Shown here: piece by piece, positions 770 through 64,000 of the stretch
Layout of the letters: each line of letters begins with the position of its first letter
How positions within the stretch are numbered: position 1 is the stretch's first letter
From: Knoellia flava TL1
GTDB taxonomy: Bacteria; Actinomycetota; Actinomycetes; Actinomycetales; Dermatophilaceae
Reading direction: 5' to 3'
Length of the DNA stretch: 64,000 bases
NCBI RefSeq assembly: GCF_000768675.1
Contig: NZ_AVPI01000087.1
Span: 1-64,000 of the forward strand
The notes under the pieces: generated by a model
The model's database searches: none
What the model was told of the DNA's origin: nothing
Seen by the model: only the letters and a program-made list of their open reading frames with translations
Translations under genes and position numbers: made by a program

Positions 770-1312
770 ATGCGGTGGGACCGGCTCTTCGACGACCTCG
801 AGGCACAGCTCGGAGCCGAGGAGCGCCGCGAGCGCGACTCCGAGGTGGCCGACCGCACCCGTCGCGAGCGGGCCTCTGTCGAGCTGGGTGCCCGGTTCGC
901 CGCCGCCGTCGGTCAGGCCGTCCGGCTGCGCCTCGTCACCGGCGCCCATCTGGAGGGGGAGCTGCTCGACCTCGGTGAGGACTGGCTCCTGCTCCGGATG
1001 AGGACCGGCCGCGAGGCGGTCGTCCCCCTCGCTGCCGTCGTCGGGGCTCTCGGTCTCGCACCGCGCGCCACGGGTGCGCGGACGGCGCGCCGGTTCACCC
1101 TCGGCTACGCGCTCCGAGGACTGTCTCGGGACCGCGCGCACGTCGCGCTCACCGACACGAGCGGTCAGGTCGTCACGGGAACGATCGACGCCGTGGGCGC
1201 GGACCACCTCGACCTCGCCGAGCACGCGCTGGGGGAGGACCGCCGGCCCGAGAACGTGCGCGGACGGCATACGGTGCCGTTCCGAGCCGTCGTGCTCGTC
1301 GAGGCGCGCTGA
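770..1312 (+). CDS. Conserved actinobacterial protein of unknown function
   Basis: 180 residues starting at the ATG preceded by TAGGCT. An acidic, Arg-rich N-terminal helix (about residues 1-45) is followed by a region rich in short beta strands (V-R-L-R-L-V-T-G-A, then E-G-E-L-L-D-L-G), which resembles a small barrel fold; a second similar half follows from about residue 120. No catalytic motif is recognised. The upstream in-frame extension is antisense to the minus-strand membrane protein and has no support. It is convergent with the HTH gene, 36 nt apart. I do not recognise a function. Confidence 0.6.
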   Translation: MRWDRLFDDLEAQLGAEERRERDSEVADRTRRERASVELGARFAAAVGQAVRLRLVTGAHLEGELLDLGEDWLLLRMRTGREAVVPLAAVVGALGLAPRATGARTARRFTLGYALRGLSRDRAHVALTDTSGQVVTGTIDAVGADHLDLAEHALGEDRRPENVRGRHTVPFRAVVLVEAR

Positions 1313-1348
1313 CCCGCGAGGGCGGTCCGGGAGACGCGGACGGGCTCG

Positions 1349-1561
1349 TCAGTCGTCGCCCTGCGCGCGAACGAAGTCGCGGGTCTGCGAGTACATCCGC
1401 TGGATGTAGTCCTCCAGCTCGGAGGTCTCGACGCGCCACTGGCCGCGGCCGCCGACCTTGATGGCGGGGAGCTCGCCGGAGCGCACGAGGGCATAGGCCT
1501 GCGCCGAGGAGATGTCGAGGATCTCGGACACCTCGGTGAGCGGGATGAACCGCTTGGCCAC
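1349..1561 (-). CDS. Excisionase-type helix-turn-helix DNA-binding protein
   Basis: 70 residues from a GTG at 1561 with GAGGAG 8 nt upstream, which decides this start over an ATG 19 codons earlier. The sequence carries the MerR/excisionase pattern: a helix-turn-helix at about residues 7-30 (EVSEILDISSAQAYALVRSG), then the wing ELPAIKVGGRGQWRV and a helix ending in DYIQRMY. Such small proteins are common single-copy actinobacterial regulators rather than phage genes; no integrase is near. It is divergent from the SAF/CpaE pair at 1819. Target unknown. Confidence 0.75.
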   Translation of the reverse strand: MAKRFIPLTEVSEILDISSAQAYALVRSGELPAIKVGGRGQWRVETSELEDYIQRMYSQTRDFVRAQGDD

Positions 1562-1818
1562 GGGCGTGCTCCTCGGGGCTGGTCGGACGGGGACGGGATC
1601 GCCGCTCCAGTCTGCCACGCAGGGCCACGGCCGCCTCGGCGCTCATCCACACGACACGACACCGTCGTTCGGGTTGGTCGACGCGGCGCCGGTTGTCCAC
1701 AGGCGCACGATCTCGTCGCGCGTCGGGGCGCTGCGTGGGACACAATCGTCGGCGGGGGAAGAGCACGGCGATCCCTCATCCCTGCCCGACTGCCGAGTTC
1801 GACGATCCGGAGTCCTTG
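1562..1818. other. Divergent intergenic region, 257 nt
   Basis: The longest gap in the window that I see no gene in. It must hold the promoters of the minus-strand HTH gene and the plus-strand SAF gene. CACAAT at 1741-1746 is a candidate -10 for the plus strand; CAGACT on the minus strand, just upstream of the HTH gene, is a weaker candidate. No hairpin or repeat of note. Confidence 0.35.
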
Positions 1819-2496
1819 ATGAGCGAGACCTCCACGCCCACCGCCCAGCGCCTTCGCCGACCCTCGTGGCGCGACAGCCGGCTCGTCGTCGGCGTCCTCC
1901 TCGTGCTCGCGTCCACCGCGATCGGTGCCTACGTCATGAGCCGCGCCGACGACCGCGTCCCCATGTATGCCGCGAAGTCCGGTCTCATGGCCGGCCAGCC
2001 GCTCACGGCCGACGACGTCGTCCGGGTCGACGTGCAGCTGGGGGACGCCGGGAGCGGCTACGTCAGCGCTGCCGGTGACCTGCCGGCGGACCAGGTGGCG
2101 TTGCGGGAGGTGCGTGCGGGCGAGCTCATCCCCGCCTCGGCCGTGGGTCCGCGGGACAAGGCGACGAGCCAGCCGCTGGCGCTCCAGGTCGACGCGACGG
2201 CGGCCTCGACGCTCCAGCCGGGTTCCGTCGTCGACGTCTACGTCAACCGGCCGACGGCACCCACCAAGGGCAGTGTCGGGACCGAGACGTTCGAAGGACC
2301 CGAGCTCACCCTCGAGGGAGTGACCGTCGTCGCGCTGTCGAAGGACGACGGGATGATGGGCTCCTCGGGCGACACCAGGCCGGTGCAGGTCATGGTCCCC
2401 AAGGAGACCGTGCAGTCGCTCGTCGGCGACGTCGACCTCGGCGCCAAGATCACCCTCGTCGCGGTTCCCGGCGCGATCGCGGCCCCCACGTCATGA
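1819..2496 (+). CDS. SAF-domain protein, CpaB/RcpC-like
   Basis: 225 residues from the ATG at 1819 with GGAG about 8 nt upstream. One membrane anchor at about residues 20-41 is followed by an SAF-type domain (about 47-110, with AAKSGLMAGQPLTADDV and the LREVRAGELIPASAV strand-turn typical of CpaB/FlgA SAF modules) and a second beta-rich part. CpaB/RcpC proteins belong to Flp/Tad pilus assembly, but no tadA, tadB, tadC or pilin gene is seen here. Its stop overlaps the ATG of the ATPase gene by 4 nt, so the two are translationally coupled and probably act together. Pilus function is inference. Confidence 0.7.
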   Translation: MSETSTPTAQRLRRPSWRDSRLVVGVLLVLASTAIGAYVMSRADDRVPMYAAKSGLMAGQPLTADDVVRVDVQLGDAGSGYVSAAGDLPADQVALREVRAGELIPASAVGPRDKATSQPLALQVDATAASTLQPGSVVDVYVNRPTAPTKGSVGTETFEGPELTLEGVTVVALSKDDGMMGSSGDTRPVQVMVPKETVQSLVGDVDLGAKITLVAVPGAIAAPTS

Positions 2497-3968
2497 CGGT
2501 CGGCGTCGTCACCGGGGTCTCGCACCACCACGAGCAGGAGCTCGTGTCCGCGCTCGAGATCGCGTCGGGCGTGAGCGTCGTCCGTCGCTGTGCGGACGTC
2601 GCCGAGCTGCTGTCGACCGGCGCGTCCGGCGTGGCGGACCTCGCGGTCGTCTCCGCCGACTTCCGCGGCCTCGACCGCGATGCGCTGCGGCACCTCGCGG
2701 GTCACGGCGTGCGCGTGGCGGGGCTCGTCGCGACCGGCGACGACGCGGGCGAGGCGCGGCTGCGCCAGCTCGGGGTGCGGGTCCTCCTGCGTCCGGGAAC
2801 CGAGCCCGAGGAGGTCGCCCGGACCCTCGTGGACCTCGCCGAGGGTGGGTTCGCGCCCGGTGTCGGTGGCGCCGCGGGGAGGGCCGGCGTGGCGGGAACG
2901 GGTGGCCGTGCGAGTGCCGCTGGCCCCTCGGCCGCCGATGGGGCGACCGGGGGGTCGGTGGTGAGCGACGACGAGCTCGCCGCGTGGCTCGGCGGCTCCG
3001 CCGGTGAGGGCGAACCGCACCCGTCCGGCGGGGCCGTGCCCAACCGCGGCGGGACCTCCGACGGACCCGGCTCTTGGGGTGACGACGGGGACGGCATCCC
3101 CCGACGCACCCGCATCACCGCCGTCTGGGGGCCGACCGGCGCCCCGGGGCGCACCACCCTCGCGGTGACGATGGCCGCGACGCTCGCCGCGCGTGGCGTC
3201 AGCACCCTGCTCGTCGACCTCGACACATGGGGCGCGAGCGTCGCCCAGGCGCTTGCGCTCATCGACGAGGCGCCGGGCGTGGCCGCGGCCGCTCGCGCCT
3301 CGGAGCAGGGCACCCTCGACCGGGCGTCCCTGTCGCGGGTCGCGCCCGAGGTGACGCCCGGGCTGCGGGTGCTCACCGGCATACCCAAGCCCGACCGGTG
3401 GCCCGAGCTGCGGGCCGCGGCGGTCGAGGACGTCCTCGAGAAGTCGCGTACGCTCGTCGGCCACGTCGTCGTCGACTGCGGGTTCGCGATCGAGGACGAC
3501 GAGGAGCTCAGCTACGACACCGCTGCGCCGCGGCGCAACGCGACGACCCTCACCGCGCTCGAGTGCGCCGACGACCTCGTCGTCGTCGGGTCGGCCGACC
3601 CGGTCGGTCTCCAGCGACTCGTGCGTGCGGTGCAGGACGTCGGCGTCGTGCCGTCGCCGGAGCCGGTCGTCGTCGTCAACAAGGTGCGCGCGTCGGCCGC
3701 CGGGTCCGCCCCGGAGAAGGCGATCACCGAGGTCCTCGGCCGGTTCGCCGGGCTCGAGGACCCGCACTTCGTGCCGTGGGCGCCGGACGAGTGCGACGTC
3801 GCGTTGCTCGCCGGCCGCAGCCTCGTCGAGCAGCCCGGTGGCGGGCTCGTCGCCGCAGCCGTCGCCCGGGTCGTTGACGCGGTGTGTCCCGAGCACGCGG
3901 CACCCGACACCCGCGCCGGTCGCCGGAGCCGGGTGCGTCTCGGGAGGCGGGCCCGCCGCTCGGCCTGA
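2493..3968 (+). CDS. CpaE/MinD-like P-loop ATPase
   Basis: 491 residues. The N-terminal ~130 residues look like a receiver-type alpha/beta domain without obvious phospho-site conservation, then a Gly/Ala/Ser-rich linker, then a MinD/ParA-superfamily ATPase from about residue 205. The deviant Walker A reads GPTGAPGRTT, with Arg where Lys is usual, and the switch region contains LLVDLDTWGAS and HVVVDCGFAIED. This order (receiver-like plus MinD-like) is that of CpaE/TadZ and of the mycobacterial Ssd protein (Rv3660c). It follows the SAF gene with a 4-nt overlap. Role in pilus positioning or septum control is inferred from the family only. Confidence 0.7.
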   Translation: MTVGVVTGVSHHHEQELVSALEIASGVSVVRRCADVAELLSTGASGVADLAVVSADFRGLDRDALRHLAGHGVRVAGLVATGDDAGEARLRQLGVRVLLRPGTEPEEVARTLVDLAEGGFAPGVGGAAGRAGVAGTGGRASAAGPSAADGATGGSVVSDDELAAWLGGSAGEGEPHPSGGAVPNRGGTSDGPGSWGDDGDGIPRRTRITAVWGPTGAPGRTTLAVTMAATLAARGVSTLLVDLDTWGASVAQALALIDEAPGVAAAARASEQGTLDRASLSRVAPEVTPGLRVLTGIPKPDRWPELRAAAVEDVLEKSRTLVGHVVVDCGFAIEDDEELSYDTAAPRRNATTLTALECADDLVVVGSADPVGLQRLVRAVQDVGVVPSPEPVVVVNKVRASAAGSAPEKAITEVLGRFAGLEDPHFVPWAPDECDVALLAGRSLVEQPGGGLVAAAVARVVDAVCPEHAAPDTRAGRRSRVRLGRRARRSA

Positions 3969-5504: not shown

Positions 5505-5936
5505 ATGCCCCTCGTTCGCGTCTACCTCCCGCTCGACGCCGGTGCGCTCGACACCCTGCGCCGCACCGGAGAGGTCGGACCGGCGCCGGTTGCCGGGCAC
5601 ACGGCGGTCGCGCCGAGCGCGCGTCCGGGCCTCGGCAACGACGACGAGGAACGCGAGTATGCCGCGTGGTCGGCTGCCGCCACCGACGCCGCCGCGCTCG
5701 CGCAGCGCGGGGAGCGGCGGGGCGTCGCGTCGGCGGACGTCGACGCCGCCGTCGTCAACGCGACAACCGAGGACGGCACAACCGTCGAGCTCGACAGCGT
5801 CGTCGCGCTGCCGCGCATCGCCTCCTTCCACATCGACGAGGAGCCGGGCGGCGAGGTCGCCGACCTCCTCTGGTACGACGTCACCGAGCTCGACGACGTC
5901 ATCCGCCTCGTCCGCGGCGACGAGCCCACCACCTAG
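5505..5936 (+). CDS. DUF6912-like conserved protein
   Basis: 143 residues. The ATG has GAAAGGA about 7 nt upstream. The sequence begins MPLVRVYLPLDAGALDTL, continues with a central DDEEREYAAWSAAATDA stretch and ends with acidic helices, which matches my memory of the actinobacterial DUF6912 family. No transmembrane segment, signal peptide or catalytic motif is visible, so it is probably a small cytoplasmic protein. It lies 11 nt behind the WS/DGAT gene. Biochemical function unknown. Confidence 0.65.
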   Translation: MPLVRVYLPLDAGALDTLRRTGEVGPAPVAGHTAVAPSARPGLGNDDEEREYAAWSAAATDAAALAQRGERRGVASADVDAAVVNATTEDGTTVELDSVVALPRIASFHIDEEPGGEVADLLWYDVTELDDVIRLVRGDEPTT

Positions 5937-6079
5937 CGTCCGCAACTCTGGTGGCCAGGGCGTCATCCCTGCGGACGCAAGCGGAGGTGCCCGGCACGGC
6001 ATACGCAGCGTCCGCAGATCTGGGGGTCAGGGCGCCAGACCTGCGGACGCAAGCGGAGGCGCGCGGCACGGCAGACGCG
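5936..6079. repeat. Two 72-bp tandem repeats with palindromic arms
   Basis: Units 5936-6007 and 6008-6079 are about 80% alike. Each starts GCGTCCGCA and carries the inverted arm TGCGGACGC 25 nt later (5936-5944/5970-5978 and 6008-6016/6042-6050), followed by AAGCGGAGG and GGCACGGCA. They lie between the DUF6912 gene and the P5C dehydrogenase gene. The core GAGTTGCGGACGC reappears at 29627-29639. Confidence 0.7.
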
Positions 6080-6159: not shown

Positions 6160-7791
6160 ATGGACGCTGTGACCCACGTCCCTGCCCCGATCAACGAGCC
6201 GGTCCGTGACTACGCGCCGGGCAGCCCCGAGCGCGCGGCCCTCGAGGTCGCGCTCGCCGAGGTCGGCAGCACGAAGTGGGACCTGCCGCATACGATCGAC
6301 GGCGAGCGCGTCGAGGGACGTGGCGCGAAGATCGACGTGCGCCAGCCGCACGCGCACCGCTCGGTGCTCGGAACCCTCCGGGACGCCACGAAGGCCGACG
6401 CGCGCGCCGCCGTCGACGCCGCGAACGCCGCCGCCCCCGCCTGGCGCGACATGTCCTTCGACGACCGGGCCTCGATCCTGCTCAAGGCCGCCGACCTGCT
6501 CGCCGGCCCGTGGCGCGCGAAGGTCAACGCCGCGACGATGCTGGGACAGAGCAAGACGGCATACCAGGCCGAGATCGACAGCGCGTGCGAGCTCATCGAC
6601 TTCTGGCGCTTCAACGTCCACTTCGCCCGCCAGATCCTCGAGGAGCAGCCGCCGGCCAACGCCCCGGGCATCTGGAACCGCACGGACTACCGCTCGCTCG
6701 AGGGCTTCGTCTACGCGATCACGCCGTTCAACTTCACCGCGATCGCCGGCAACCTGCCGACCGCGCCGGCGCTCATGGGCAACACCGTCGTCTGGAAGGC
6801 GTCGCACACGCAGGCGCTCGCGGCCCAGTTCGTCCTCGAGATCCTCGAGGAGGCCGGCATGCCGCCCGGCGTCATCAACCTCGTCACCGGTCACGGCACC
6901 GAGGTCTCGGACGTCGTCCTCAAGCACCCCGAGTTCGCGGGTCTGCACTTCACCGGCTCGACGCGCGTCTTCCAGCACCTGTGGCAGGAGATCGGCTCGA
7001 ACCTCACGACCTACCGGCACTACCCCCGGATCGTCGGGGAGACCGGTGGCAAGGACTTCATCCTCGCCCATCCGAGCGCCGACCCCGACGTCGTCCGGAC
7101 CGCCATGATCCGCGGCGCCTTCGAGTACCAGGGCCAGAAGTGCTCGGCCGCGTCGCGCGCGTTCATCCCGCGCAGCATCTGGAAGGTCATCAAGAAGGAC
7201 CTCGTCGAGCTCACCGAGGGCCTGACGATGGGCAACGTCACCGACCTGTCGAACTTCATGGGGGCCGTCATCGACGACCGTGCGTTCGCCAAGCACAAGG
7301 CCGCGATCGACCGGGCCCGGGCGACGAGCGGCATCGAGATCGTCGCCGGTGGCACCTACGACGACTCCGAGGGCTGGTTCGTCCGCCCGACGATCATGGT
7401 CGGTGAGGACCCGAACGACGAGATCTTCACGACCGAGTACTTCGGTCCGCTGCTCTCGGTCCACGTCTACCCGGACCGCCAGTTCGGCAAGGTCATGGAC
7501 ACCATCGACTCGGCCTCGGCCTACGCGCTCACCGGCTCGATCATCGCCCAGGACCGCGCCGCCGTCGCCGAGGCCACCCAGCGCCTGCGCTTCGCGGCGG
7601 GCAACTTCTACGTCAACGACAAGCCGACCGGTGCCGTCGTCGGCCAGCAGCCCTTCGGTGGCGGGCGTGCCTCGGGCACGAACGACAAGGCCGGTTCGGC
7701 GCAGAACCTCCTGCGCTGGACGAGCCCGCGCTCGATCAAGGAGACGTTCGTGCCACCGACGAACCACACCTACCCGCACATGGGCGTCTGA
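6160..7791 (+). CDS. pruA: L-glutamate gamma-semialdehyde dehydrogenase (P5C dehydrogenase)
   Basis: 543 residues from the ATG at 6160, preceded by GAGGAAG; longer in-frame starts cross the repeat region and are unlikely. The enzyme oxidises 1-pyrroline-5-carboxylate (as glutamate semialdehyde) to glutamate with NAD+, the second step of proline catabolism, in the cytoplasm. Visible aldehyde dehydrogenase motifs: ITPFNFTAIAGN, the glutamate loop VGETGGKDF, and the catalytic cysteine in YQGQKCSAASRAF, with NFYVNDKPTG and PFGGGRASGTNDKAG near the C-terminus. Length and N-terminus fit the monofunctional type; no proline dehydrogenase gene is in the window. NAD-glutamate dehydrogenase lies 1.7 kb downstream, so proline carbon could flow to 2-oxoglutarate. 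Confidence 0.93.
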   Translation: MDAVTHVPAPINEPVRDYAPGSPERAALEVALAEVGSTKWDLPHTIDGERVEGRGAKIDVRQPHAHRSVLGTLRDATKADARAAVDAANAAAPAWRDMSFDDRASILLKAADLLAGPWRAKVNAATMLGQSKTAYQAEIDSACELIDFWRFNVHFARQILEEQPPANAPGIWNRTDYRSLEGFVYAITPFNFTAIAGNLPTAPALMGNTVVWKASHTQALAAQFVLEILEEAGMPPGVINLVTGHGTEVSDVVLKHPEFAGLHFTGSTRVFQHLWQEIGSNLTTYRHYPRIVGETGGKDFILAHPSADPDVVRTAMIRGAFEYQGQKCSAASRAFIPRSIWKVIKKDLVELTEGLTMGNVTDLSNFMGAVIDDRAFAKHKAAIDRARATSGIEIVAGGTYDDSEGWFVRPTIMVGEDPNDEIFTTEYFGPLLSVHVYPDRQFGKVMDTIDSASAYALTGSIIAQDRAAVAEATQRLRFAAGNFYVNDKPTGAVVGQQPFGGGRASGTNDKAGSAQNLLRWTSPRSIKETFVPPTNHTYPHMGV

Positions 7792-8473: not shown

Positions 8474-8998
8474 TCAGGACACACGCAGGCTGCGGGCGAG
8501 GGCCTCGAGCTCGGTCGTCGACGCCGCCACCTCGGCGAGGAACCGGTCGCGTCGGCGGCGGTGCTGCGCGGCCACGGCGTCGAGCTCGGCCTGCACCTTC
8601 GCGACCGTGTCGGCGCGGCCGCGGGTCGTCGCGGCGTCGGCCTCGCCGGTGACGCCCCACGCCAGCCGGGCCCTCCCGGCCTCGACCGTGATGCCCGCAG
8701 CCGACGCCTCGTCGAGGACCGCGCGGGCGCGCGCCTGCAACGCACTCAGCTCGACGGCATACGACTGGAGGGCGGCACCGACCGCCTCGGTGTGACGCCC
8801 GCCGACGGTGAGCGCGTCGAGGGCCCGGCGGCCCTCCTTGCGCACGCGGACCGACGTCGAGGTGCCCCACACGTCCTTGAGCGAGGCGTATGCCGTCCCG
8901 CTGGCCTCGCAGGCAGCCGCCAGCTCGCGCGAGGCGCGGGTGGCCGAGGCGCCGAGGGCGGAGAGCGAGGCCGGGTCACCCGGCACGAGCCCCCTCAC
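8474..8998 (-). CDS. Coiled-coil protein of unknown function
   Basis: 174 residues starting at the GTG of a GTGA overlap with the stop of the upstream gene. It is almost entirely helical, Ala/Glu/Arg-rich, with a central DVWGTSTSVRVRKEGRRALD segment and a long C-terminal coiled coil. No signal peptide or catalytic motif. The 4-nt overlap with the 107-residue gene says the two products work together. Size and helical character recall the small partner proteins of ESX-type systems, but I do not see a WXG motif in the right place and do not assign it. Confidence 0.55.
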   Translation of the reverse strand: MRGLVPGDPASLSALGASATRASRELAAACEASGTAYASLKDVWGTSTSVRVRKEGRRALDALTVGGRHTEAVGAALQSYAVELSALQARARAVLDEASAAGITVEAGRARLAWGVTGEADAATTRGRADTVAKVQAELDAVAAQHRRRRDRFLAEVAASTTELEALARSLRVS

Positions 8999-9461: not shown

Positions 9462-12400
9462 ATGACTGAGTCATCGGTCCACCCCCGATCGACCACACTG
9501 GACGCCATCGTCTCGGCTTTCGCCGGTCTCGACCCACGACCGGACGGCGCGGAGATCGTCGGACGCTACTTCCGCCACGTGCCCGACGAGGAGCTGAGCG
9601 CACGCCCTGCGCGCATCCTCGCCGGAGCGGTGAAGTCGCACCTCGACCTCGCCGAGAGCCGCACGCCCGGCACCGCCGCGGTGCGGGTCTTCAACCCGAC
9701 GACCGACACCGACGGGTGGTCGAGCGCCCGCACCGTCATCCAGGTCGTCACCGACGACATGCCCTTCCTCGTCGACTCGGTCACCGGCGCCCTCGTGCAG
9801 CGCGACATCGACATCCACCTCGTCATCCACCCGCAGTTCCGCGTCCGTCGCGACGAGTCCGGACACCTCCTCGAGACCTGCGACGCCGACGACCCCGGCG
9901 TGCGCGAGGGCGACGCCGACGTCCACAACGAGTCGTGGATCCTGCTCACCGTCGACCGCGAGAGCGAGCAGACCGCGCGCGACCAGCTCACCGCCGTCCT
10001 CGAGAACGTGCTGCTCGACGTGCGCGAGGCCGTCACCGACTGGCCCTCGATGCGGACCCGCTGCCTCGTCATCGCCGCCGAGCTCGAGGGCACGCCGCCG
10101 CGTGGCGTCGACCCCGCGGAGGTCAGCCAGGCGGCCGCCTTCCTCCGGTGGATGGCCGACAACCACTTCACCTTCCTCGGCTACCGCGAGTACGCCCTCG
10201 AGGACACCGCCGAGGGAGACGTCATCCGGCCGCTGAGCGGCACCGGCCTCGGCATGCTCAAGCAGGACCCGCCGGCCGACAAGAAGATCGTGCCGCTCTC
10301 GCCCGAGTCGAGCCGCAAGGCCCGCGAGCGGGGCGTCCTCGTCCTCACCAAGGCGAACTCGCGCTCGACGGTGCACCGCCCGACCTACCTCGACTACGTC
10401 GGCATCCGCACCTACGCTCCGGACGGCAGCACGGCGGGGGAGAAGCGCTTTCTCGGCCTCTATGCGTCGACGGCCTACACCGAGTCGGTGCTGCGACTGC
10501 CCGTCGTCGCCGAGAAGGTCCAGTCGGTGCTCGAGCAGTCCGGGCTCGCGCCCGACTCGCACACCGGCAAGGACCTCCTCGAGGTCCTCGAGACCTATCC
10601 GCGCGACGAGCTCATCCAGGCGACGCCGGAGGACCTCTACGAGACGGCGATGGCCGTCACCCAGCTCCAGGAGCGGCGTCGCACCAAGCTCTTCCTGCGC
10701 GAGGACGACTTCGGCCGGTTCGTCTCGTGCCAGGTCTACATCCCGCGCGACCGCTACAACACCGGCGTCCGGACCCGCATGGCGGCGATCCTCAAGGACG
10801 CCTTCGGTGGCGAGAGCGTCGAGTTCACCGCACGCGTGAGCGAGCGCGCGCTCTCCCGGTTGCAGTTCGTCGTCCGGGTCCCCGTCGGAGAGCGCGTCCG
10901 ACACCTCGACGAGGACGAGCGGGAGCGGCTCGAGCGCCGGCTCGTCGAGGTCAGCCGGACGTGGGCGGACCGCCTCGGTGACGGCCTGCGCGACCGCCTC
11001 GGCGAGGTCGAGGGCGACCGGCTGCTCGACCGGTTCGGGCGCGGCTTTCCCACGGCATACGAGGAGACGTTCTCCGTCGTCCAGGGTGTGGCCGACCTGC
11101 ACCACCTCGACGGGCTGAGCGACGAGCGCCGCACGAGCGTCGCGCTATACCGCCCCGCCGACTCGCCCGAGGGGCTGCGCCGCTTCAAGCTCTTCCGCGT
11201 GGACCCGTTGTCGCTCACCGACATCCTGCCGATCTTCACCGACATGGGGGTCGAGGTCGTCGACGAGCAGCCCTACGAGGTGAACCGGTCCGACGGTGCG
11301 CAGCTGCACGTCTACGACTTCGGTCTGCGGGTGCAGGACCAGGAGATCTGGTCGGGCATCGCGCACGAGGACCTGCGCGAGCTCTTCGAGGGTGCCGTCC
11401 TCGCCGTGTGGGACGGGCGTGCCGAGTCCGACGGGTTCAACCAGCTCGTCCTCGCGGCGCGCCTCAGCTGGCGGCAGGTCGTCGTGCTGCGGACGGTCGC
11501 GAAGTACCTCCGCCAGACGCAGGCGACGTTCAGCCAGTCCTACTTCGAGGACGCACTCGTCGGGAACCCGTCGATCGCGGCCGACCTCGTCGCCTTCTTC
11601 GAGGCACGCTTCGACCCAGAGGCCTTCCGCGCCGACGAGGACGAGCAGCGCCAGGAGCGACAGGACGAGATCGCCGCGCGGATCACCGCCGCCCTCGACG
11701 ACGTGAGCTCGCTCGACGAGGACCGCATCATCCGGTCCTTCCTCGCCGTCATGCGCGCGACGCTGCGCACGAACTTCTTCCAGCCCGCCGCCGACGGCGA
11801 GCCCCGCGCCTACGTCTCGCTCAAGCTCGACCCGACGGCGATCCCCGACCTGCCGGCGCCGCGACCGGCATACGAGATCTGGGTCTACAGCCCGCAGGTC
11901 GAGGGCGTGCACCTCCGGTTCGGGTCGGTGGCCCGCGGTGGTCTGCGCTGGAGCGACCGGCGCGAGGACTTCCGCACGGAGATCCTCGGACTCGTCAAGG
12001 CGCAGATGGTCAAGAACGCCGTCATCGTGCCGACCGGCTCCAAGGGCGGCTTCTATGCCAAGAAGCTGCCCGACCCGGCCGTCTCGCGCGAAGCGTGGCT
12101 CGAGGAGGGCCAGTCGGCCTACCGGACCTTCATCTCCGGCCTGCTCGACATCACCGACAACCGCGTCGGCTCCGAGATCGTCCCCCCGGAGCGCGTCGTG
12201 CGCCACGACGGCGACGACCCCTACCTCGTCGTCGCCGCAGACAAGGGCACGGCGACCTTCTCGGACATCGCCAACGGCGTCGCCCAGTCCTACGGTTTCT
12301 GGCTCGACGACGCGTTCGCGTCCGGTGGCTCGGCCGGCTACGACCACAAGGCGATGGGCATCACGGCCCGAGGTGCCTGGGAGTCGGTCAAGCGGCACTT

Positions 12401-14360
12401 CCGCGAGATGGGCGTCGACACCCAGACCGAGGACTTCACCGCGGTCGGCGTCGGCGACATGAGCGGCGACGTCTTCGGCAACGGCATGCTGCTCTCCGAG
12501 CACATCCGCCTCGTCGCGGCGTTCGACCACCGTCACGTCTTCATCGACCCCGAACCCGTTGCGGCACAGTCGTTCCGGGAGCGCAAGCGCCTCTTCGAGC
12601 TGCCGCGCTCGTCATGGGACGACTACGACCGCTCGCTCATCTCCGCCGGCGGCGGCGTCTTCCCCCGCTCTCTCAAGTCGGTGACGGTCACGCCCGAGAT
12701 GCGGGCGGCCCTCGGGCTCGACGACGGCGTCACGACGATGACCCCGACCGAGCTCATCCACGCGATCCTGCTCGCGCCGGTCGACCTGCTGTGGAACGGC
12801 GGCATCGGCACCTACGTCAAGGCGGCGAGCGAGGACCACCTGTCGATCGGCGACCGTGCCAACGACGCCATTCGCGTCAACGGCAACGAGCTGCGCGTCA
12901 AGGTCGTCGGCGAGGGCGGCAACCTCGGCCTCTCCCAGCTCGGCCGCATCGAGGCCTCGCTGTCCGGCGTCCGGGTCAACACCGACGCCATCGACAACAG
13001 CGCGGGCGTCGACACCTCCGACCACGAGGTCAACATCAAGATCCTCCTCGGCGACGTCGTGCGCCGCGGCGACCTCACGACCGAGGAGCGCAACACCCTC
13101 CTCGCGTCGATGACCGACGACGTCGCCGAGCACGTGCTGCGCGACAACTACGAGCAGAACGTCCTCCTCGGCAACGCCCGTGCGCAGGACCTCTCGATGG
13201 TGCCGGTCCACCAGCGCCTCATGAGCTGGCTCGAGGAGCGCGGCGAGCTCGACAGGTCGCTCGAGTTCCTCCCGACGGACGCCGAGATCGCCAAGCGCGC
13301 CTCCGAGGGGCTCGGGCTCAAGTCGCCCGAGTTCTCGGTCCTCGTCGCCTACGCCAAGCTCGCGCTCAAGAAGGACATCCTCGCGAGTGACCTGCCGGAC
13401 GACCCGTACTTCGCGGCGACCCTCGCTCACTACTTCCCGAAGGCACTGCGCGAGCCGTATGCCGCGGAGCTGGGTGAGCACCCGCTGCGCCGCGAGATCA
13501 TCACGAACTCGGTCGTCAACTCGATGGTCAACCGAGGTGGCATCACGTTCGCCTTCCGCGCGGCGGAGGAGGTAACGTGCACGCCCGACCAGGTGGCCCG
13601 CGCGTTCATCGTCTGCCGTGAGGTCTTCGACCTGCGGGGCTACGTCAAGGCGGTCGAGGAGCTCGACAACAAGCTGCCGACCAAGGTGCAGACGGGTCTC
13701 TACCTCGAGTTCCGGCGCCTGCTCGACCGTGCGGTGCGCTGGCTGCTCGGTGCCCGGCCCAGCGGTCTCGACATCACGACCGAGGTCGAGCGGTTCGCCC
13801 CGGTCGTCGCGGACCTCGTGCCGCGCATCCCCGAGCTGCTCCAGGGCGGCGAGCGCGAGCGAGTCCTCGCGCAGACCGCCGCGTGGGAGGAGGCCGGGGT
13901 GCCGAGCGAGCTCGCGGCCCGCGCCGCCTCGCTGCTCGACAGCTACTCGCTGCTCGACGTGGTCGAGATCGCCTCGGACGTCGACCACACCGCCCACGAG
14001 GTGGCCGAGGTGTACTTCCGGCTCTCCGAGCGGTTCGGGATCGACGGGATGCTCAACCGGGTCGCCGGCCTGCCGCGCGACGACCGCTGGGACGCGCTCG
14101 CTCGCGGCGCCCTGCGCGACGACCTCTACTCCGTCCTCGAGTCGTTCACCCGCAACGCGTTCGAGTTCGCCAAGGACCTCGACGGCGACGGCGTCGTCAC
14201 GGCCGACGAGCGGATCGAGGCGTGGGACGCGGCCGGCGACGGAGCCGTGGAGCGGGTCAGCAGCCAGCTGGCCGGCATACGGTCGCTCGAGAAGCCCAAC
14301 ATCGCTGCGCTCTCGGTGGCCCTGCGGACGCTTCGGTCCGTGGTCCGGCAGGGAGGCTGA
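9462..14360 (+). CDS. gdh: NAD-specific glutamate dehydrogenase, 180-kDa class
   Basis: 1632 residues from the ATG at 9462; this matches the large GDH class. It deaminates glutamate to 2-oxoglutarate with NAD+, mainly for amino-acid catabolism. Visible: regulatory ACT-like N-terminal half, then the catalytic domain with GLRWSDRREDFRTEILGL, the lysine region VPTGSKGGFYAKKL, and the nucleotide-binding stretch GVGDMSGDVFGNGML. Near the C-terminus, residues 1572-1583 read DLDGDGVVTADE, a full EF-hand-type calcium loop, which I would not expect in this family. AAAGGAT lies 13 nt before the ATG, a long spacing. Longer in-frame starts run antisense to the upstream operon and are rejected. Confidence 0.92.
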   Translation: MTESSVHPRSTTLDAIVSAFAGLDPRPDGAEIVGRYFRHVPDEELSARPARILAGAVKSHLDLAESRTPGTAAVRVFNPTTDTDGWSSARTVIQVVTDDMPFLVDSVTGALVQRDIDIHLVIHPQFRVRRDESGHLLETCDADDPGVREGDADVHNESWILLTVDRESEQTARDQLTAVLENVLLDVREAVTDWPSMRTRCLVIAAELEGTPPRGVDPAEVSQAAAFLRWMADNHFTFLGYREYALEDTAEGDVIRPLSGTGLGMLKQDPPADKKIVPLSPESSRKARERGVLVLTKANSRSTVHRPTYLDYVGIRTYAPDGSTAGEKRFLGLYASTAYTESVLRLPVVAEKVQSVLEQSGLAPDSHTGKDLLEVLETYPRDELIQATPEDLYETAMAVTQLQERRRTKLFLREDDFGRFVSCQVYIPRDRYNTGVRTRMAAILKDAFGGESVEFTARVSERALSRLQFVVRVPVGERVRHLDEDERERLERRLVEVSRTWADRLGDGLRDRLGEVEGDRLLDRFGRGFPTAYEETFSVVQGVADLHHLDGLSDERRTSVALYRPADSPEGLRRFKLFRVDPLSLTDILPIFTDMGVEVVDEQPYEVNRSDGAQLHVYDFGLRVQDQEIWSGIAHEDLRELFEGAVLAVWDGRAESDGFNQLVLAARLSWRQVVVLRTVAKYLRQTQATFSQSYFEDALVGNPSIAADLVAFFEARFDPEAFRADEDEQRQERQDEIAARITAALDDVSSLDEDRIIRSFLAVMRATLRTNFFQPAADGEPRAYVSLKLDPTAIPDLPAPRPAYEIWVYSPQVEGVHLRFGSVARGGLRWSDRREDFRTEILGLVKAQMVKNAVIVPTGSKGGFYAKKLPDPAVSREAWLEEGQSAYRTFISGLLDITDNRVGSEIVPPERVVRHDGDDPYLVVAADKGTATFSDIANGVAQSYGFWLDDAFASGGSAGYDHKAMGITARGAWESVKRHFREMGVDTQTEDFTAVGVGDMSGDVFGNGMLLSEHIRLVAAFDHRHVFIDPEPVAAQSFRERKRLFELPRSSWDDYDRSLISAGGGVFPRSLKSVTVTPEMRAALGLDDGVTTMTPTELIHAILLAPVDLLWNGGIGTYVKAASEDHLSIGDRANDAIRVNGNELRVKVVGEGGNLGLSQLGRIEASLSGVRVNTDAIDNSAGVDTSDHEVNIKILLGDVVRRGDLTTEERNTLLASMTDDVAEHVLRDNYEQNVLLGNARAQDLSMVPVHQRLMSWLEERGELDRSLEFLPTDAEIAKRASEGLGLKSPEFSVLVAYAKLALKKDILASDLPDDPYFAATLAHYFPKALREPYAAELGEHPLRREIITNSVVNSMVNRGGITFAFRAAEEVTCTPDQVARAFIVCREVFDLRGYVKAVEELDNKLPTKVQTGLYLEFRRLLDRAVRWLLGARPSGLDITTEVERFAPVVADLVPRIPELLQGGERERVLAQTAAWEEAGVPSELAARAASLLDSYSLLDVVEIASDVDHTAHEVAEVYFRLSERFGIDGMLNRVAGLPRDDRWDALARGALRDDLYSVLESFTRNAFEFAKDLDGDGVVTADERIEAWDAAGDGAVERVSSQLAGIRSLEKPNIAALSVALRTLRSVVRQGG

Positions 14361-42889: not shown

Positions 42890-46457
<3,568 letters not shown>

Positions 46458-50465: not shown

Positions 50466-51170
50466 TCAGGAGCGGGGGAGTGATCCCGATGATCCTGCGT
50501 CGCTGGACGGACCGAGGCTGACCTCGAGCTCGGCCACGGTGACCTCGCGCGCGGCGAGGACGTGCTCCTCCGCCAGGGCGCCGGCGAGCGCCGGGTCGCC
50601 GGCCGCGACGGCCTCGATGATGCTGCGGTGCTCGGCGAGCGCGGCCTCCCGGCGCTCGGGCGAGGCGTTGCTGAACCTGCGGTAGCGCGCGAGCTGACCC
50701 TCGATCTGGGCGAGGACCCGTGAGGCCCAGGCGTGGTCGGCGATGCGCTCCAGCTCGACGTGGATCGCGTGGCCGGACTCCATCGCCCCGTTGGCGAGAC
50801 CGGCGAGCGCCTCGTTGCGGTGCAGCAACGCCATGAGCCGGTCGACGTCCGCGGGCTCCGCTCGTTCGGCCGCAGCCGCCGCGACGAGACCCTCGAGTCG
50901 GGCGCGGACGGCATACAGCTCGGCGGCGTCCCGCGGGGTGAGCCGGCGCACGACCATGCCACCGGTCGGGAGCTGCTCGAGCAGCTCCTCGGCGAGGAGC
51001 AGGCGCAGCGCCTCGCGCAGCGGGGTGCGGCTCACCCCCAGCGACGTGGCGAGCTCGGCCTCGTTGAGGCGGCGTCCGGGCTCGAGCCGCATGTCCTGGA
51101 TGCGGTCGAGCAGCTCCTCGTAGACGAACTGGGCGCCACTGCGCCGGCGGGGGCTCGGGTTCGTCGCCAT
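50466..51170 (-). CDS. GntR/FCD-family transcription regulator
   Basis: 234 residues from the ATG at 51170. Winged HTH at about 12-75 (GRRLNEAELATSLGVSRTPL, REALRLLLAEELLEQL) and an all-helical FCD ligand domain with the metal-binding His/Asp pattern (HVELERIADH, AEHRSIIEAVAAGD). FCD regulators bind carboxylates or amino acids. The 16-bp palindrome at 51204 is its likely operator and would control both this gene and the divergent dehydrogenase operon, probably as a repressor released by the substrate. Confidence 0.9.
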   Translation of the reverse strand: MATNPSPRRRSGAQFVYEELLDRIQDMRLEPGRRLNEAELATSLGVSRTPLREALRLLLAEELLEQLPTGGMVVRRLTPRDAAELYAVRARLEGLVAAAAAERAEPADVDRLMALLHRNEALAGLANGAMESGHAIHVELERIADHAWASRVLAQIEGQLARYRRFSNASPERREAALAEHRSIIEAVAAGDPALAGALAEEHVLAAREVTVAELEVSLGPSSDAGSSGSLPRS

Positions 51171-54150: not shown

Positions 54151-55556
54151 CGACCGCGGACACCGTCATCGAGACCATCGACCCGACGACCGGGACGCCG
54201 CTCGCGACCCATCCGGTCATGGACGACGCCGCGATCGAGTCCGCCGTCGCCGAGGTGGACCAGGCCGCCCGGACCTGGGGTGCCTCCTCGGTCGAGGAGC
54301 GCGCCGCGTTCCTCACCGCGATCGCGGACTCCCTTGTCGCACAGCGGGACTCGCTCGCCGAGCTCATCACGTCCGAGATGGGCAAGCCCCTGCGCGAGGC
54401 GCGTGGTGAGGTCGACAAGTCCGCGACCACGGCCCGCTGGTACGCCGACAACCTCGAGCGCCTGCTCGAGCCCCGGCAGGTCGACGTGGGCGACGGCGCG
54501 CAGGCCTGGGTGACGCGCGAGCCCATCGGGCCCGTGCTCGCCGTCATGCCGTGGAACTTCCCGCTGTGGCAGGTGATGCGCTTCGTCCTCCCGGCGCTGG
54601 GAGCCGGCAACACGGTGCTGCTCAAGCACTCACCCAACGTCACCGGGTGCGCGCTGGCGATCGAGTCGCTCGTGCGCGACTCCGCTCCGGCCGGCGACGT
54701 TCCTCACGGCGTCCTGCGCACCCTCGTCGTCGACGAGCCACGCGTGCCCGAGGTGACCGAGCGGCTCGTCGCCGACCCACGCGTGGCCGGGGTGACGCTC
54801 ACGGGCAGCAACCGCGCGGGAGCTGCCGTCGGCGCCGCGGCCGGTCGAGCGGTCAAGCCCTCGGTCCTCGAGCTCGGCGGGTCGGACGCGTTCGTCGTGC
54901 TCTCGGACGCCGACGTGCCGGCGGCCGCCGACGCCGCGGTGCGGGCGAGGTTCCACAACGCCGGTCAGTCCTGCGTGTGCGCCAAGCGGTTCGTCGTCGC
55001 CGCAGAGGTCGCCGACGCCTTCGTCGACCGCTTCCTCCTGGGCGTCGCCGGGCTCCGTGTCGGCGACCCCACCGACGAGTCCGTCGACGTCGGCCCGATG
55101 GCACGCGACGACCTCCGGACGGAGATCCAGCGCCAGGTCGACGCCTCGGTGGTCGGCGGTGCGAGGCTCCTCGCCGGCGGCTCGGCGGTCGAGGGTGAGG
55201 GATGGTTCTTCGAGCCGACGGTGCTCACCGTCGACGGCCCCGGCGTCCCCGCGTTCGACGAGGAGACGTTCGGCCCGCTCGCCGCCATCGTCGTCGCGAA
55301 GGACGACGAGGACGCGGCACGCCTCGCCGGCGCGACGGCATACGGGCTGGGTCTGTCGGTGTGGAGCGCCTCGACCGAGCGCGCCGTGGCGCTGGCGCGG
55401 AAGGTGACCACGGGCGCGGTCTTCGTCAACGCGGTCGTCGCGTCCGACGTGCGCGTGCCCTTCGGCGGGACCAAGCAGTCGGGCTACGGTCGCGAGCTGT
55501 CGGCCGAGGGCATGTATGCCTTCATGAACCAGCGGACCTACTGGGCCGCGCGCTGA
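54147..55556 (+). CDS. NAD(P)-dependent aldehyde dehydrogenase
   Basis: 469 residues, of the succinate-semialdehyde dehydrogenase-like branch. Visible: MPWNFPLWQVMRFVLPALGA, TLTGSNRAGAAVG, the general-base Glu in VLELGGSDAFVV, the catalytic Cys in NAGQSCVCAKRFV, and EETFGPLAAIVV. Last gene of the GntR-controlled operon; it would oxidise an aldehyde made by the upstream dehydrogenases. Its end overlaps the convergent response-regulator gene by 19 nt. Confidence 0.92.
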   Translation: MTTADTVIETIDPTTGTPLATHPVMDDAAIESAVAEVDQAARTWGASSVEERAAFLTAIADSLVAQRDSLAELITSEMGKPLREARGEVDKSATTARWYADNLERLLEPRQVDVGDGAQAWVTREPIGPVLAVMPWNFPLWQVMRFVLPALGAGNTVLLKHSPNVTGCALAIESLVRDSAPAGDVPHGVLRTLVVDEPRVPEVTERLVADPRVAGVTLTGSNRAGAAVGAAAGRAVKPSVLELGGSDAFVVLSDADVPAAADAAVRARFHNAGQSCVCAKRFVVAAEVADAFVDRFLLGVAGLRVGDPTDESVDVGPMARDDLRTEIQRQVDASVVGGARLLAGGSAVEGEGWFFEPTVLTVDGPGVPAFDEETFGPLAAIVVAKDDEDAARLAGATAYGLGLSVWSASTERAVALARKVTTGAVFVNAVVASDVRVPFGGTKQSGYGRELSAEGMYAFMNQRTYWAAR

Positions 55557-59616: not shown

Positions 59617-61173
59617 ATGGACGGCATCAACGCCCTGCTCGAGGGGATGTCGTCGGCCCTGACGCCGATGAACCTCCTCTACGCCTTCCTCGGTGTCCTT
59701 CTCGGCACCGCCATCGGCGTCCTGCCCGGCATCGGCCCGGCCATGGCCATCGCCCTGCTCCTGCCGCTCACCTACACCCTCGAGGTCGAGCAGGCGATCA
59801 TCATGTTCGCCGGTCTCTACTACGGCGGCATGTACGGCGGCTCGACGACCTCGATCCTGCTCAACACACCGGGCGAGAGCGCATCGGTGATGACGGCGAT
59901 CGAGGGCAACAAGATGGCCAAGGCGGGTCGCGGCGCCGCCGCCCTCGCCACCGCGGCCATCGGTTCCTTCGTCGCCGGCACCATCGCCACCCTCTGCCTC
60001 GCGCTGCTCGCGCCCCAGGTCGTCAAGTTCGCGATCCAGCTCGGCGACCCTGACTACCTCGCCGTCATGGTCTTCGCGTTCGTCGCGGTGACGACCGTCC
60101 TCGGCTCGTCGAAGATCCGTGGCTTCGCCAGCCTCGGCCTCGGCGTGTGGATCGGTCTCATCGGCATCGACCAGACCTCCGGCCAGCAGCGGCTCACCTT
60201 CGGCATCGACCAGCTCTCCGACGGCATCGACGTCGTCGTCGTCGCCGTCGCGGTCTTCGCGATGGGCGAGGCGCTGTGGATCGCCGCGCACCTGCGCCGG
60301 GCCCCGGCGCGGATCATCCCCATCAAGGGCCGGCTCATGACCCGCGAGGACCTCTCGCGCTCGTGGAAGCCGTGGCTGCGCGGCTCCGCGATCGGCTTCC
60401 CCTTCGGTGCGATCCCGGCCGGTGGTGCGGAGATCCCGACGTTCCTCTCCTACATCACCGAGCGCAAGCTCGCGAAGAAGCCGGAGGAGTTCGGCAAGGG
60501 CGCCATCGAGGGCGTCGCCGGGCCCGAGGCGACCAACAACGCCTCCGCCGCGGGCAGCCTCGTCCCGCTCCTCACCCTCGGCATCCCGACGACCGCCACG
60601 GCGGCCGTCATGATCCTCGCGTTCCAGACCTACGGCATCCAGCCCGGTCCGCGGCTCTTCGACGAGCAGGGCCCGCTCGTGTGGACGCTCATCGCGAGCC
60701 TCCTCATCGGCAACGCGATGCTCCTCGCGCTCAACCTGCCGATGGCAGGCCTGTGGGCCAAGCTCCTGCTCATCCCCAGGCCCTACCTGTATGCCGGCAT
60801 CCTCATGTTCGCGTCGCTCGGCGCCTACGCGGCCAACGGCACGGCGTTCGACCTGTGGCTGCTCCTGCTCATCGGCGGACTGGGCTTCGCGATGCGGCGC
60901 TACGGCCTGCCGGTGGTGCCGCTCATCGTCGGCCTCATCCTCGCCCCGCGGGCCGAGGTCTTCATGCGGCGCGCACTGCAGATCAGCGACGGGCACCTCT
61001 CGGGCCTCGTCAACACGCCCTTCTCGAAGGTCGTCTACGCGCTCGTCCTGCTCGTCGTCCTCGTGCCGCTCGTCTGGGGCCAGGTCAGGAAGCGCCGCAC
61101 CCCGCCGGAGGACCCGACCTCGGGACCCGACGGCACCCGCCTGCAGCAGCACGCCAACAGCGAAGGAGCCTGA
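59617..61173 (+). CDS. tctA: Tripartite tricarboxylate transporter large membrane subunit
   Basis: 518 residues with 11-12 membrane helices. Family signatures: [40 protein letters not shown], and [20 protein letters not shown]. Ion-driven uptake subunit. Complete tctCBA set followed by a universal stress gene 1 nt after its stop, an arrangement often seen with TTT transporters. Confidence 0.95.
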
Positions 61174-61629: not shown

Positions 61630-61638
61630 GCGCGGCCC

Positions 61639-61712: not shown

Positions 61713-61718
61713 CGCCCG

Positions 61719-62158: not shown

Positions 62159-62165
62159 GGCGCCC

Positions 62166-62462
62166 ATGGCTGAACTCACCCGCGACGACGTGGCGCACCT
62201 CGCCGGTCTCGCCCGCATCGACCTCTCCGACGCCGAGCTCGACAGGATGGTCGGCGAGCTGGGCGTCATCCTCGAGTCCGTCGCCGTCGTCCAGCAGTCG
62301 CCGATCGAGGGCGTCGAGCCGATGAGCCACCCGATGCCGATCGTTAACGTCACGCGACCCGACGTCGTCCGGCCGAGCCTCGGCGCCGAGGCCGCCCTCG
62401 CGGGCGCCCCCGAGGCCGACCAGCAGCGCTTCTCCGTCCCCCGCATCCTCGACGAGGACTGA
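62166..62462 (+). CDS. gatC: Asp-tRNA(Asn)/Glu-tRNA(Gln) amidotransferase subunit C
   Basis: 98 residues, full length. GatC wraps GatA and GatB in the GatCAB complex, which makes Gln-tRNA and Asn-tRNA by transamidation. Visible: LTRDDVAHLAGLARIDLSDA, ELGVILESV, MSHPMPIVNVTRPDVV, RFSVPRILDED. gatA follows after a 99-nt gap that holds a hairpin. Confidence 0.95.
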   Translation: MAELTRDDVAHLAGLARIDLSDAELDRMVGELGVILESVAVVQQSPIEGVEPMSHPMPIVNVTRPDVVRPSLGAEAALAGAPEADQQRFSVPRILDED

Positions 62463-62481
62463 GCGAGCGACGGCGGCTCCC

Positions 62482-62510
62482 GTATGCCGTGAGGTGAGCT
62501 CCCGGCATAC
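62482..62510. repeat. GTATGCC inverted pair between gatC and gatA
   Basis: GTATGCCG at 62482-62489 and CGGCATAC at 62503-62510, 13-nt loop. Same word as in the tandem hairpins at 40.8 kb. Confidence 0.7.
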
Positions 62511-62561
62511 CCCTTCCGTTTCCTTCCCCGCACGACGCAGACCCAGACCGCAAGGACCGAC

Positions 62562-64000
62562 GTGACCACAGACCTGACCCGCGCCAGCGCCGCCGAGCTC
62601 GCCGACCTCCTGACCTCCGGGGGGACGAGCTCGGTCGAGGTGACGCAGGCGCTGCTCGACCGGACCGACGCCGTCGACGGCGACGTCCACGCCTACCTTC
62701 ACGTCGACCGCGAGGGCGCCCTCGCCACCGCGCGCGACATCGACCAGCGACGGGCCGCCGGGGAGCAGCTCCACCGGCTCGCCGGCGTGCCGATCGCCGT
62801 CAAGGACGTCATGACGACCAAGGGCCTGCCGACGACGTGCGGCAGCCGGATCCTCGAGGGGTGGATCCCGCCCTACGACGCGACCGTCGTCACCCGCATC
62901 AAGGCCGCGGGCATGCCGATCCTCGGCAAGACCAACATGGACGAGTTCGCCATGGGGTCCTCGACCGAGCACTCGGCCTACGGCCCGACGCGCAACCCCT
63001 GGGACCTCGAGCGCATCCCCGGCGGCTCCGGTGGTGGCTCGAGTGCCGTCGTCGCGTCGTTCCAGGCGCCGCTCGCCACCGGCACCGACACCGGCGGCTC
63101 GATCCGCCAGCCCGCGGCTGTCACCGGGACCGTCGGGACCAAGCCGACCTACGGCGGCGTCTCCCGCTACGGCCTCGTCGCCCTCGCGTCCTCGCTCGAC
63201 CAGGCCGGCCCGTGCACGCGCACCGTCCTCGACGCGGCGCTGCTCCACGAGGTCATGGGCGGTCACGACCCGATGGACTCGACGTCGATCGACGCCCCCG
63301 TGCCCGCCGTCGTCGAGGCCGCGCGCCGCGCGGACGTCAAGGGGATGCGCATCGGCATCGTCCGCGAGCTCACCGGCGAGGGCTTCCAGGCCGGGGTGCA
63401 GCAGCGCTTCGAGGAGTCGGTCCAGCACCTTGTCGACGCCGGCGCCGAGGTCGTCGAGGTCTCGTGCCCGAGCTTCACCGCGGCGCTCGCCGCCTACTAC
63501 CTCATCCTCCCGTCGGAGGCGTCGAGCAACCTCGCGAAGTTCGACGCGATGCGCTACGGCATGCGCGTGCTGCCCGAGGGCATCGACGACCCCAGCGCGG
63601 AGCAGGTCATGGCCGCGACGCGCGACGCCGGCTTCGGCGACGAGGTCAAGCGCCGCATCATCCTCGGCACCTACGCCCTCTCGTCGGGCTACTACGACGC
63701 CTACTACGGCTCGGCGCAGAAGGTCCGCCGCCTCATCGCCGACGACTTCGCCAAGGCCTTCGAGACGGCCGACGTCCTCGTCTCGCCGACCGCGCCGACG
63801 ACGGCCTTCCGCTTCGGCGACAAGATCGACGACCCGATGGCGATGTACCTCAACGACATCGCGACGATCCCCGCCAACCTCGCCGGCGTCCCTGGCATGT
63901 CGCTCCCGAGCGGCCTCGCGGACGAGGACGGCCTCCCCGCGGGCTTCCAGATCCTCGCGCCGGCCGCCGCCGACGAGCGCCTGTATGCCGTCGGCTCGGC
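62562..64000 (+). CDS. gatA: Asp-tRNA(Asn)/Glu-tRNA(Gln) amidotransferase subunit A, truncated by window edge
   Basis: Starts at a GTG with AAGGA about 6 nt upstream and is open to the end of the window (479 codons; about 500 expected). Amidase-signature family: catalytic lysine 81 in [24 protein letters not shown], and the nucleophile serine region [15 protein letters not shown]. Produces ammonia from glutamine or asparagine for GatB. The order gatC-gatA after ligA matches M. tuberculosis. Confidence 0.95.

Follow-up and report, generated by a model that had tools for sequence, protein, structure and literature searches.

The stretch of 64,000 nt analysed here (hereafter the window) is the beginning of contig NZ_AVPI01000087.1 of Knoellia flava TL1; it carries, among other genes, ligA, gatA and an xdhC-like gene, and a short DNA word, the octamer CGGCATAC (or GTATGCCG on the other strand), recurs throughout it, in genes as well as in noncoding DNA. 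When the LigA of the window was compared with named genomes, four Knoellia loci came first among the best 80 loci (89–92% identity in the best segment), and we take the family of this Knoellia-related soil actinobacterium to be the Dermatophilaceae/Intrasporangiaceae. Neither Rfam nor a tRNA scan matched anything in the window. A preliminary description of the window, made from its letters, had counted 26 GGCATAC and 21 GTATGCC on the plus strand and considered this heptamer strongly over-represented; our recount was identical, and the 47 copies compare with both-strand Markov expectations of 5.1 (third order) and 2.3 (second order). Among the window 7-mers seen at least six times, TATGCCG ranked first and GTATGCC second under either order. 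With a fourth-order model TATGCCG was still on top (49 vs 17.0 expected) and GTATGCC was outside the top rows, and with a fifth-order model neither of them was among the top rows, because the hexamer counts behind that expectation already hold nearly the whole motif. The true unit is the non-palindromic octamer, which 46 of the 47 heptamer sites fit; the flanks of the window sites are unrelated to each other, except for a small duplication at 40833–40888. Over 320 sites in 439 kb of the genome, the 5′ neighbour of CGGCATAC was A in 56% and C in 30% of cases and almost never T, and G was favoured as 3′ neighbour (57%).

The density of about one copy per 1.4 kb noticed in the window holds for the whole genome (3.56 Mb, 94 contigs), with 2,541 copies of CGGCATAC (1,273 + 1,268; 713 per Mb) and 94 of the reversed word (50 + 44). 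This frequency is not close to a third-order Markov expectation: in the 439 kb to which that model was applied, the whole genome serving for counts, the octamer was found 321 times vs 15.7 expected. Each of the nine genomes of the genus, including the studied one, contains 1,971–3,277 copies, and across 149 genomes of the family, an even draw from a larger group, the number ranges from 7 (G037) up to 4,724 (G007) and is patchy by genus. Outside of the family, 174 genomes from a class-wide sample of 178 all had fewer than 52 copies per Mb, and a few of them exceeded the small reversed-word control several-fold, but on tens of copies. Separately, two loci from metagenome-assembled genomes (MAGs) labelled as Nocardioidaceae, L052 and L074, are enriched in GTATG[A/C]CG and GTACGNCG; unless these bins are mislabelled, the word family may extend past the Dermatophilaceae.

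Several lines of evidence support that the excess of CGGCATAC acts at the DNA level, as the preliminary description had proposed on the grounds that codon or protein effects were insufficient. The 309 sites present in 424 kb comprise 227 coding (0.62 per kb) and 82 noncoding sites (1.37 per kb); genes were called with a home-made codon model and these splits are approximate. The coding sites fall in six frames (109 TAT GCC, 76 GCA TAC, 21 GGC ATA, 16 ATG CCG, 4 CGG CAT and 1 GTA TGC), such that 185 of them lie in Ala-Tyr or Tyr-Ala pairs and the excess extends beyond these pairs to the 42 sites in other frames and to the noncoding ones. Against the same gene call, the reading frames given in the preliminary description were all right: GGC-ATA at heptamer positions 3378, 14274, 28009, 32379, 44811, 50059 and 52204, CGG-CAT-ACG at 1266, and ATG-CCG at 30280 and 45106. 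Codon choice depends on context: Tyr-Ala between two Gs is written TAT GCC in 109 of 131 cases, while the other 220 Tyr-Ala pairs have TAT 41 times; GCA TAC is chosen for 76 of the 124 Ala-Tyr pairs that follow CG and for 1 of 188 elsewhere; and 21 of the 29 ATA codons sit inside the word. Synonymous-codon shuffling of 375 kb predicted 9.9 coding copies, vs 197 observed. A codon or amino-acid explanation is thus ruled out by the codon-context and codon-shuffle tests. Word sites are mostly single and within genes, and the intergenic density is 2.21 per kb between tandem, 1.78 between divergent and 1.56 between convergent genes.

Comparison between species likewise supports maintenance at the DNA level. 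In alignments to five congeneric genomes (39–58 kb each, 81–85% identity), the word was intact at 33/45, 28/35, 24/32, 23/34 and 34/40 aligned sites, far above ordinary 8-mers (25–35%) and 8-mers with three A/T (33–43%) from the same alignments. Ungapped copies in these five genomes were intact in 142 cases, with one difference in 12 and with two or more in 29, and at three named Knoellia loci the word was kept at 9/9, 7/8 and 7/9 sites. In the comparison with G017, GCA was kept in 8 of 10 cases inside the word and in 14 of 83 elsewhere, and TAT in 17 of 18 and 5 of 14, respectively.

The word lacks polarity. On 360 kb of one contig the strands carry 131 and 132 copies, with nine 40-kb bins all near even, and 24 stretches of the complete chromosome of another member of the genus (G121), each with 5 to 21 words per 20 kb, gave 164 vs 163. 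With the origin of this chromosome put near position 1 by six DnaA-box matches and the terminus assumed opposite, we counted 64 forward and 66 reverse copies up to 2.0 Mb and 100 and 97 in the other half. These even counts argue against a strand-polar use of the type of Chi or KOPS (FtsK-orienting polar sequences). Spacing, whose examination the preliminary description had suggested together with strand bias relative to origin and terminus, is near random (coefficients of variation of 0.91 and 1.13).

Close pairs of words (less than 40 bp) are, however the sample is taken, predominantly inverted: 10/10 in 424 kb of the genome, nine of them noncoding; 9/11 in other Knoellia-type genomes; 12/12 in other genera with the same word; 9/12 in genera using GGATGCCG, described below; and 11/11 for the Janibacter-type word, also described below. 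Two such arrangements occur in the window (Table 1). The four-word cluster is intergenic, with the xdhC-like gene on one side and the next gene on the other, and folds as a long hairpin (-45.8 kcal/mol, without shuffle control); the pair near gatA also folds as a hairpin (-17.3 kcal/mol, likewise without shuffle control), and the real start of gatA is probably further downstream than predicted.

Table 1. Occurrences of the word in the window and the word-poor island elsewhere in the genome; window sites are octamer matches unless stated otherwise, with frames and noncoding status taken from the home-made gene call.
Feature	Position	Strand	Remarks
Word CGGCATAC	1265..1272	+	Frame CGG CAT AC
Word	1965..1972	-	
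Word	3377..3384	+	GGC ATA frame
Word	5657..5664	-	
Word	5997..6004	+	Noncoding
Word	6557..6564	+	
Word	8755..8762	+	
Word	8888..8895	-	
Word	11053..11060	+	
Word	11866..11873	+	
Word	13457..13464	-	
Word	14273..14280	+	GGC ATA frame
Word	17404..17411	+	
Word	19484..19491	-	
Word	20901..20908	+	
Word	21577..21584	-	
Word	22443..22450	+	
Word	24269..24276	-	
Word	25084..25091	-	
Word	25323..25330	+	Noncoding
Word	27510..27517	-	
Word	28008..28015	+	GGC ATA frame
Word	29714..29721	+	
Word	30279..30286	+	ATG CCG frame of minus-strand gene
Word	32087..32094	-	
Word	32378..32385	+	GGC ATA frame
Word	34635..34642	+	
Word	35551..35558	-	
Word	35853..35860	+	
Word	37489..37496	-	
Four words, two inverted pairs	40833..40888	.	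40833-, 40847+, 40867-, 40881+; apparently small duplication
Word in ligA	44810..44817	+	GGC ATA frame
Word in ligA	45106..45113	-	ATG CCG frame
Word	50004..50011	-	
Word	50058..50065	+	GGC ATA frame
Word	50909..50916	+	
Word	51618..51625	-	
Word	52203..52210	+	GGC ATA frame
Word	55336..55343	+	
Heptamer only	55514..55520	-	A replaces leading C; lone exception among 47
Word	60789..60796	-	
Inverted word pair	62482..62510	.	62482-, 62503+; at predicted gatA start
Word in gatA	63983..63990	-	
Word-poor island	L102:10928 to L103:about 14000 (G000 contig C1)		Low G+C for most part

Elsewhere in the window, the minus strand of 16301–20803 codes for a 1,500-aa protein that combines FHA-like (Yop-YscD_cpl) domains with FtsK/SpoIIIE domains, presumably an EssC/EccC-like type VII secretion ATPase.

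The longest word-poor stretch found (last row of Table 1) spans 27.5 kb and contains one word vs about 20 expected. This island adjoins a tRNA-Thr gene and an rve integrase/transposase gene, which from its rve/HTH_21 domains we take to be of the IS3 type, and its other genes code for TY-Chap2, DUF6308, DUF6994 and OmpA-domain proteins and for a protein of 1,475 aa that matches WD40 weakly. Most island proteins have no known function, and Pfam gave a few matches, mostly to domains of unknown function; PHROGs matched 1 of 10 proteins, and PADLOC none of the 10 tested. Low-G+C windows in general contain 0.28 words per kb vs 0.66–0.93, a deficit that reflects mainly this one region, since 6 of the 10 lowest-G+C windows fall inside it.

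Related genera use related words. We surveyed 32 groups, picked mainly for scarce CGGCATAC, and obtained codon-shuffle results for 28 of them (the remainder being G019, L052, G084 and G014): 12 contained a member of the word family, 3 a Janibacter-type word and 10 no clear member, and 3 outgroups had none. Samples of Mycobacterium, Rhodococcus and Cellulomonas showed none of the dialect words in excess. The word GGATGCCG (= CGGCATCC) is clearly a second dialect. Three genomes of the same family, G026, G016 and G064, carry 3,949, 3,816 and 3,838 copies of it, vs 289, 392 and 439 for the reversed controls, and have little CGGCATAC (40, 235 and 272 copies, respectively); 30 other genomes searched had 260–1,038 copies, i.e., 1.3 to 3.6 times their controls. 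Codon shuffling confirmed the excess in G026 (31 vs 3.9), in G016 (22 vs 4.2) and in two Humibacillus loci (33 vs 7.8). Within this one dialect the word was kept at 16 of 18 aligned sites, and between dialects some sites carry the other word: at 3 of 12 orthologous sites GTATGCCG of L027 reads GGATGCCG in L032, and equivalent switches occurred at 3/10 (L046 to L032), 2/9 (L027 to L031), 2/7 (L046 to L031), 2/8 (L025 to L032) and 3/6 sites (L028 to L032), with 1 to 3 sites retaining the old word in these other locus pairs and small numbers throughout.

Two further words are probable dialects. In Flexivirga, GTATGNCG was found 28 times in 22 kb, with all four N seen, vs 3.0 expected by codon shuffling. 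The word GTACGNCG, less sure than the other dialects, totals 2.4 to 4.8 times its expectation in seven samples of 20–60 kb each, namely G081 (95 observed/30.5 expected), G040 (69/26.8, without its G form), G024 (39/16.1), G023 (61/15.8), G069 (88/28.6), MAG AUS1 (43/13.7) and L074 (48/9.9), and is intermediate in G088 (28 vs 13.0, 2.2 times). The related dialects have the core G.A.G.CG in common and overall fit G[T/G]A[T/C]G[C/N]CG. A word unrelated to CGGCATAC, CGAAGGGGG/CGAAGGGAG, is over-represented in Janibacter (L022, L023, L024) and in two further genomes, G037 and G126 (L149–L152), and is likely a further case: in L022–L023, CCCCCTTC occurs 21 times in genes vs 3.1 by codon shuffling, plus 12 noncoding copies, and this word is also found in long inverted hairpins. 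Two other samples showed repeated words of their own. In G019 (L136, L137; genus g19) these center around GGCCGTAGCCCTG, with GGCTACGG found 15 times vs 1.2 expected, and could represent either a further word or an interspersed repeat; in G057 (L125, L126; genus g9), 9-mers such as GTGGGCTCC and CTCGGGGCT, at 20–27 copies in 40 kb, are probably a repetitive gene or an interspersed repeat.

The density of the word, its lack of polarity, the dialects built on a fixed core, the inverted hairpin pairs and, more tentatively, the near absence from the one presumably acquired island match what is known of DNA uptake sequences (DUS), and make self-recognition of the uptake type the most likely interpretation, one to which we would give an even chance of being correct. 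The preliminary description had named three parallels for the word, of which uptake sequences fit best. HIP1, the highly iterated palindrome of cyanobacteria, fits poorly because CGGCATAC is not palindromic and none of three methyltransferase families is shared by all nine genomes of the genus, and KOPS are disfavoured because there is no strand bias. As we envisage it, CGGCATAC would be bound by a DNA receptor that the natural-transformation machinery exposes at the cell surface, so that uptake and recombination would favour kin DNA carrying the word; this import bias, or selection for it, would then keep copies on both strands at about one per 1.4 kb, and a change of receptor would bring about a change of word, leading to the genus-specific dialects. 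This presupposes that the cells are competent and that the word raises uptake, the receptor being putatively a Tad/Flp minor pilin or a ComEA-type protein.

The word would probably be read by Tad/Flp-ComEA/EC machinery, judging from the genes present. The studied genome possesses three such components, which are near universal in the 149 family genomes: ComEC was found in 145, ComEA in 144 (75, among them the studied genome, above the model cut-off) and TadE-like proteins in 146 (136 above the cut-off). A type IVa pilus was discarded as the machine because its marker PilM appeared in only 5 of the 149 genomes, four of these matches being weak and partial, and in no genome of the genus (nine searched, the studied one included). 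Comparison of the Tad locus of the studied genome with 19 others revealed no gene that tracks the word, with genes called in the own locus only and parts of it missed by the caller. Near these Tad genes (L217:7219–8597) there are a small secreted-looking protein and a second protein, presumably sortase-like from its appearance, both without a match in the other 19 Tad loci.

Several observations weigh against an uptake function. The com and tad genes are equally common in word-poor genera, and therefore their presence does not predict the word and is useless for this purpose; likewise, the near absence of PilM means that any receptor would differ from ComP. Ten family samples lacked a clear word. 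The island was chosen post hoc as the longest gap. Pooled, the 24 one-letter variants of CGGCATAC are not in excess (181 observed vs 244 expected in coding DNA), and passages of PMC1939737 describe mismatched uptake sequences as over-represented too in Haemophilus influenzae and Neisseria gonorrhoeae, although the excess falls 92-fold and 82-fold, respectively, at the first mismatch. Searches of the open-licence PubMed Central (PMC) literature turned up no uptake experiment on these bacteria and no paper on such words in Actinobacteria, Actinomycetota or Intrasporangiaceae, and a term search of papers on Micrococcus luteus found no mention of uptake sequences. For the word itself, the same literature gave off-topic matches alone (Ralstonia typing, human genes), in agreement with the preliminary description, which knew of no described role.

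Among other explanations, the one that survives best, although we consider it unlikely, is that CGGCATAC is bound by a protein that organises, replicates or recombines the chromosome (a nucleoid protein, or one reading Chi- or KOPS-like sites) and whose specificity drifts between genera. Presence all along the complete chromosome and the conservation of the word speak for it, but the even strand counts in both chromosome halves argue against KOPS-like and oriented Chi-like uses, and the near absence from the island and the genus dialects require extra assumptions. We hold it somewhat less probable that the word is HIP-like and tied to a methyltransferase or a restriction-modification system, being methylated and created or maintained by a process that depends on methylation. 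In cyanobacteria, HIP1 and alternate HIPs are tied to matching methyltransferases (Elhai 2015, PMC4390886). The alternate forms resemble dialects; however, HIPs are palindromic and, of three methyltransferase families searched in the nine word-rich genomes of the genus, PF01555 was found in 5/9, PF02384 in 6/9 and PF00145 in 7/9, the studied genome lacking the first two and G121 and G129 the third. No shared enzyme thus emerged among these three families, the search being limited to them, so that families such as MethyltransfD12 and Eco57I lie outside it. Less probable again would be a self-mark that spares the chromosome from a defence or DNA-degradation system, as a Chi-like shield or a self/non-self tag; genome-wide presence, near absence from one island and equal orientations are expected from it, but the 10 island proteins had no PADLOC match, in a search for word-linked defence made at the island only. 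Finally, codon or dipeptide bias, mobile repeats, terminators or mutation bias are hardly credible: most coding sites do lie in Ala-Tyr/Tyr-Ala frames and close pairs do form hairpins, but codon shuffling leaves the excess unaccounted for, noncoding DNA is denser in the word than coding DNA, flanks are unrelated save for the one duplication, sites are mostly single and intragenic, one-letter variants are not enriched, and convergent gaps are not the richest.

If the word indeed mediates uptake, another phylum would join the two known families as a third and independent case, one that relies on a different pilus and has several dialects, and this would imply that uptake specificity evolves repeatedly; receptors could then be sought by comparison among such genera, and efficient ways of transforming environmental actinobacteria could follow. 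Tentatively, and with somewhat less confidence than in the uptake interpretation as such, we propose that these words could be the first sequence-recognition code for DNA sharing in Gram-positive bacteria, comprising family-wide words in two clear dialects (GTATGCCG, GGATGCCG) and two probable ones (GTATGNCG, GTACGNCG) as well as the Janibacter word. A Tad/Flp-pilus transformation machine lacking a receptor of the ComP type would read the code, which would raise a barrier between species of Actinomycetota. Even with another function, there must be some machine to read a word that reaches about 4,700 copies in a genome and is spelled differently from genus to genus.

Chi and KOPS are over-represented octamers that are strand-biased relative to replication, unlike CGGCATAC (131/132 on one contig; 64/66 and 100/97 by chromosome half). 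Known uptake words have a density of about one per 1–2 kb, and the uptake signal sequences (USS) of the Pasteurellaceae show a similar density and no polarity. The alternate HIPs and HIP1 resemble our word in being octamers in great excess that were replaced in some lineages, but a section of PMC4390886 portrays them as palindromic and tracking a matching methyltransferase, neither of which applies to CGGCATAC for the three families tested. USS share with it a short enriched motif and, in passages of PMC12616744, have two dialects and a receptor without experimental proof; they differ in that their sequence is unrelated, in the Gram-positive envelope here, and in that mismatch forms are enriched in H. 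influenzae (part of PMC1939737). The same passages of PMC12616744 name just two families, the Neisseriaceae and the Pasteurellaceae (both proteobacterial), as known to discriminate when DNA is bound, and give the length of known uptake words as ca. 9–12 letters, a little above the eight found here. Unlike the case of the DUS of the Neisseriaceae, the host here is a high-G+C actinomycetote, words with one mismatch show no enrichment, a receptor of the ComP type is not to be expected with PilM in 5/149 family genomes, and the role in uptake is proposed. DUS as described in PMC3630211 are the closest counterpart: short non-palindromic words in thousands of copies, whose dialects keep an invariant core (CTG in the Neisseriaceae) and vary at one or two other letters, and with stem-loop inverted pairs, there linked to terminators, as in the arrangement of words, dialects and hairpins seen in Knoellia and its relatives.

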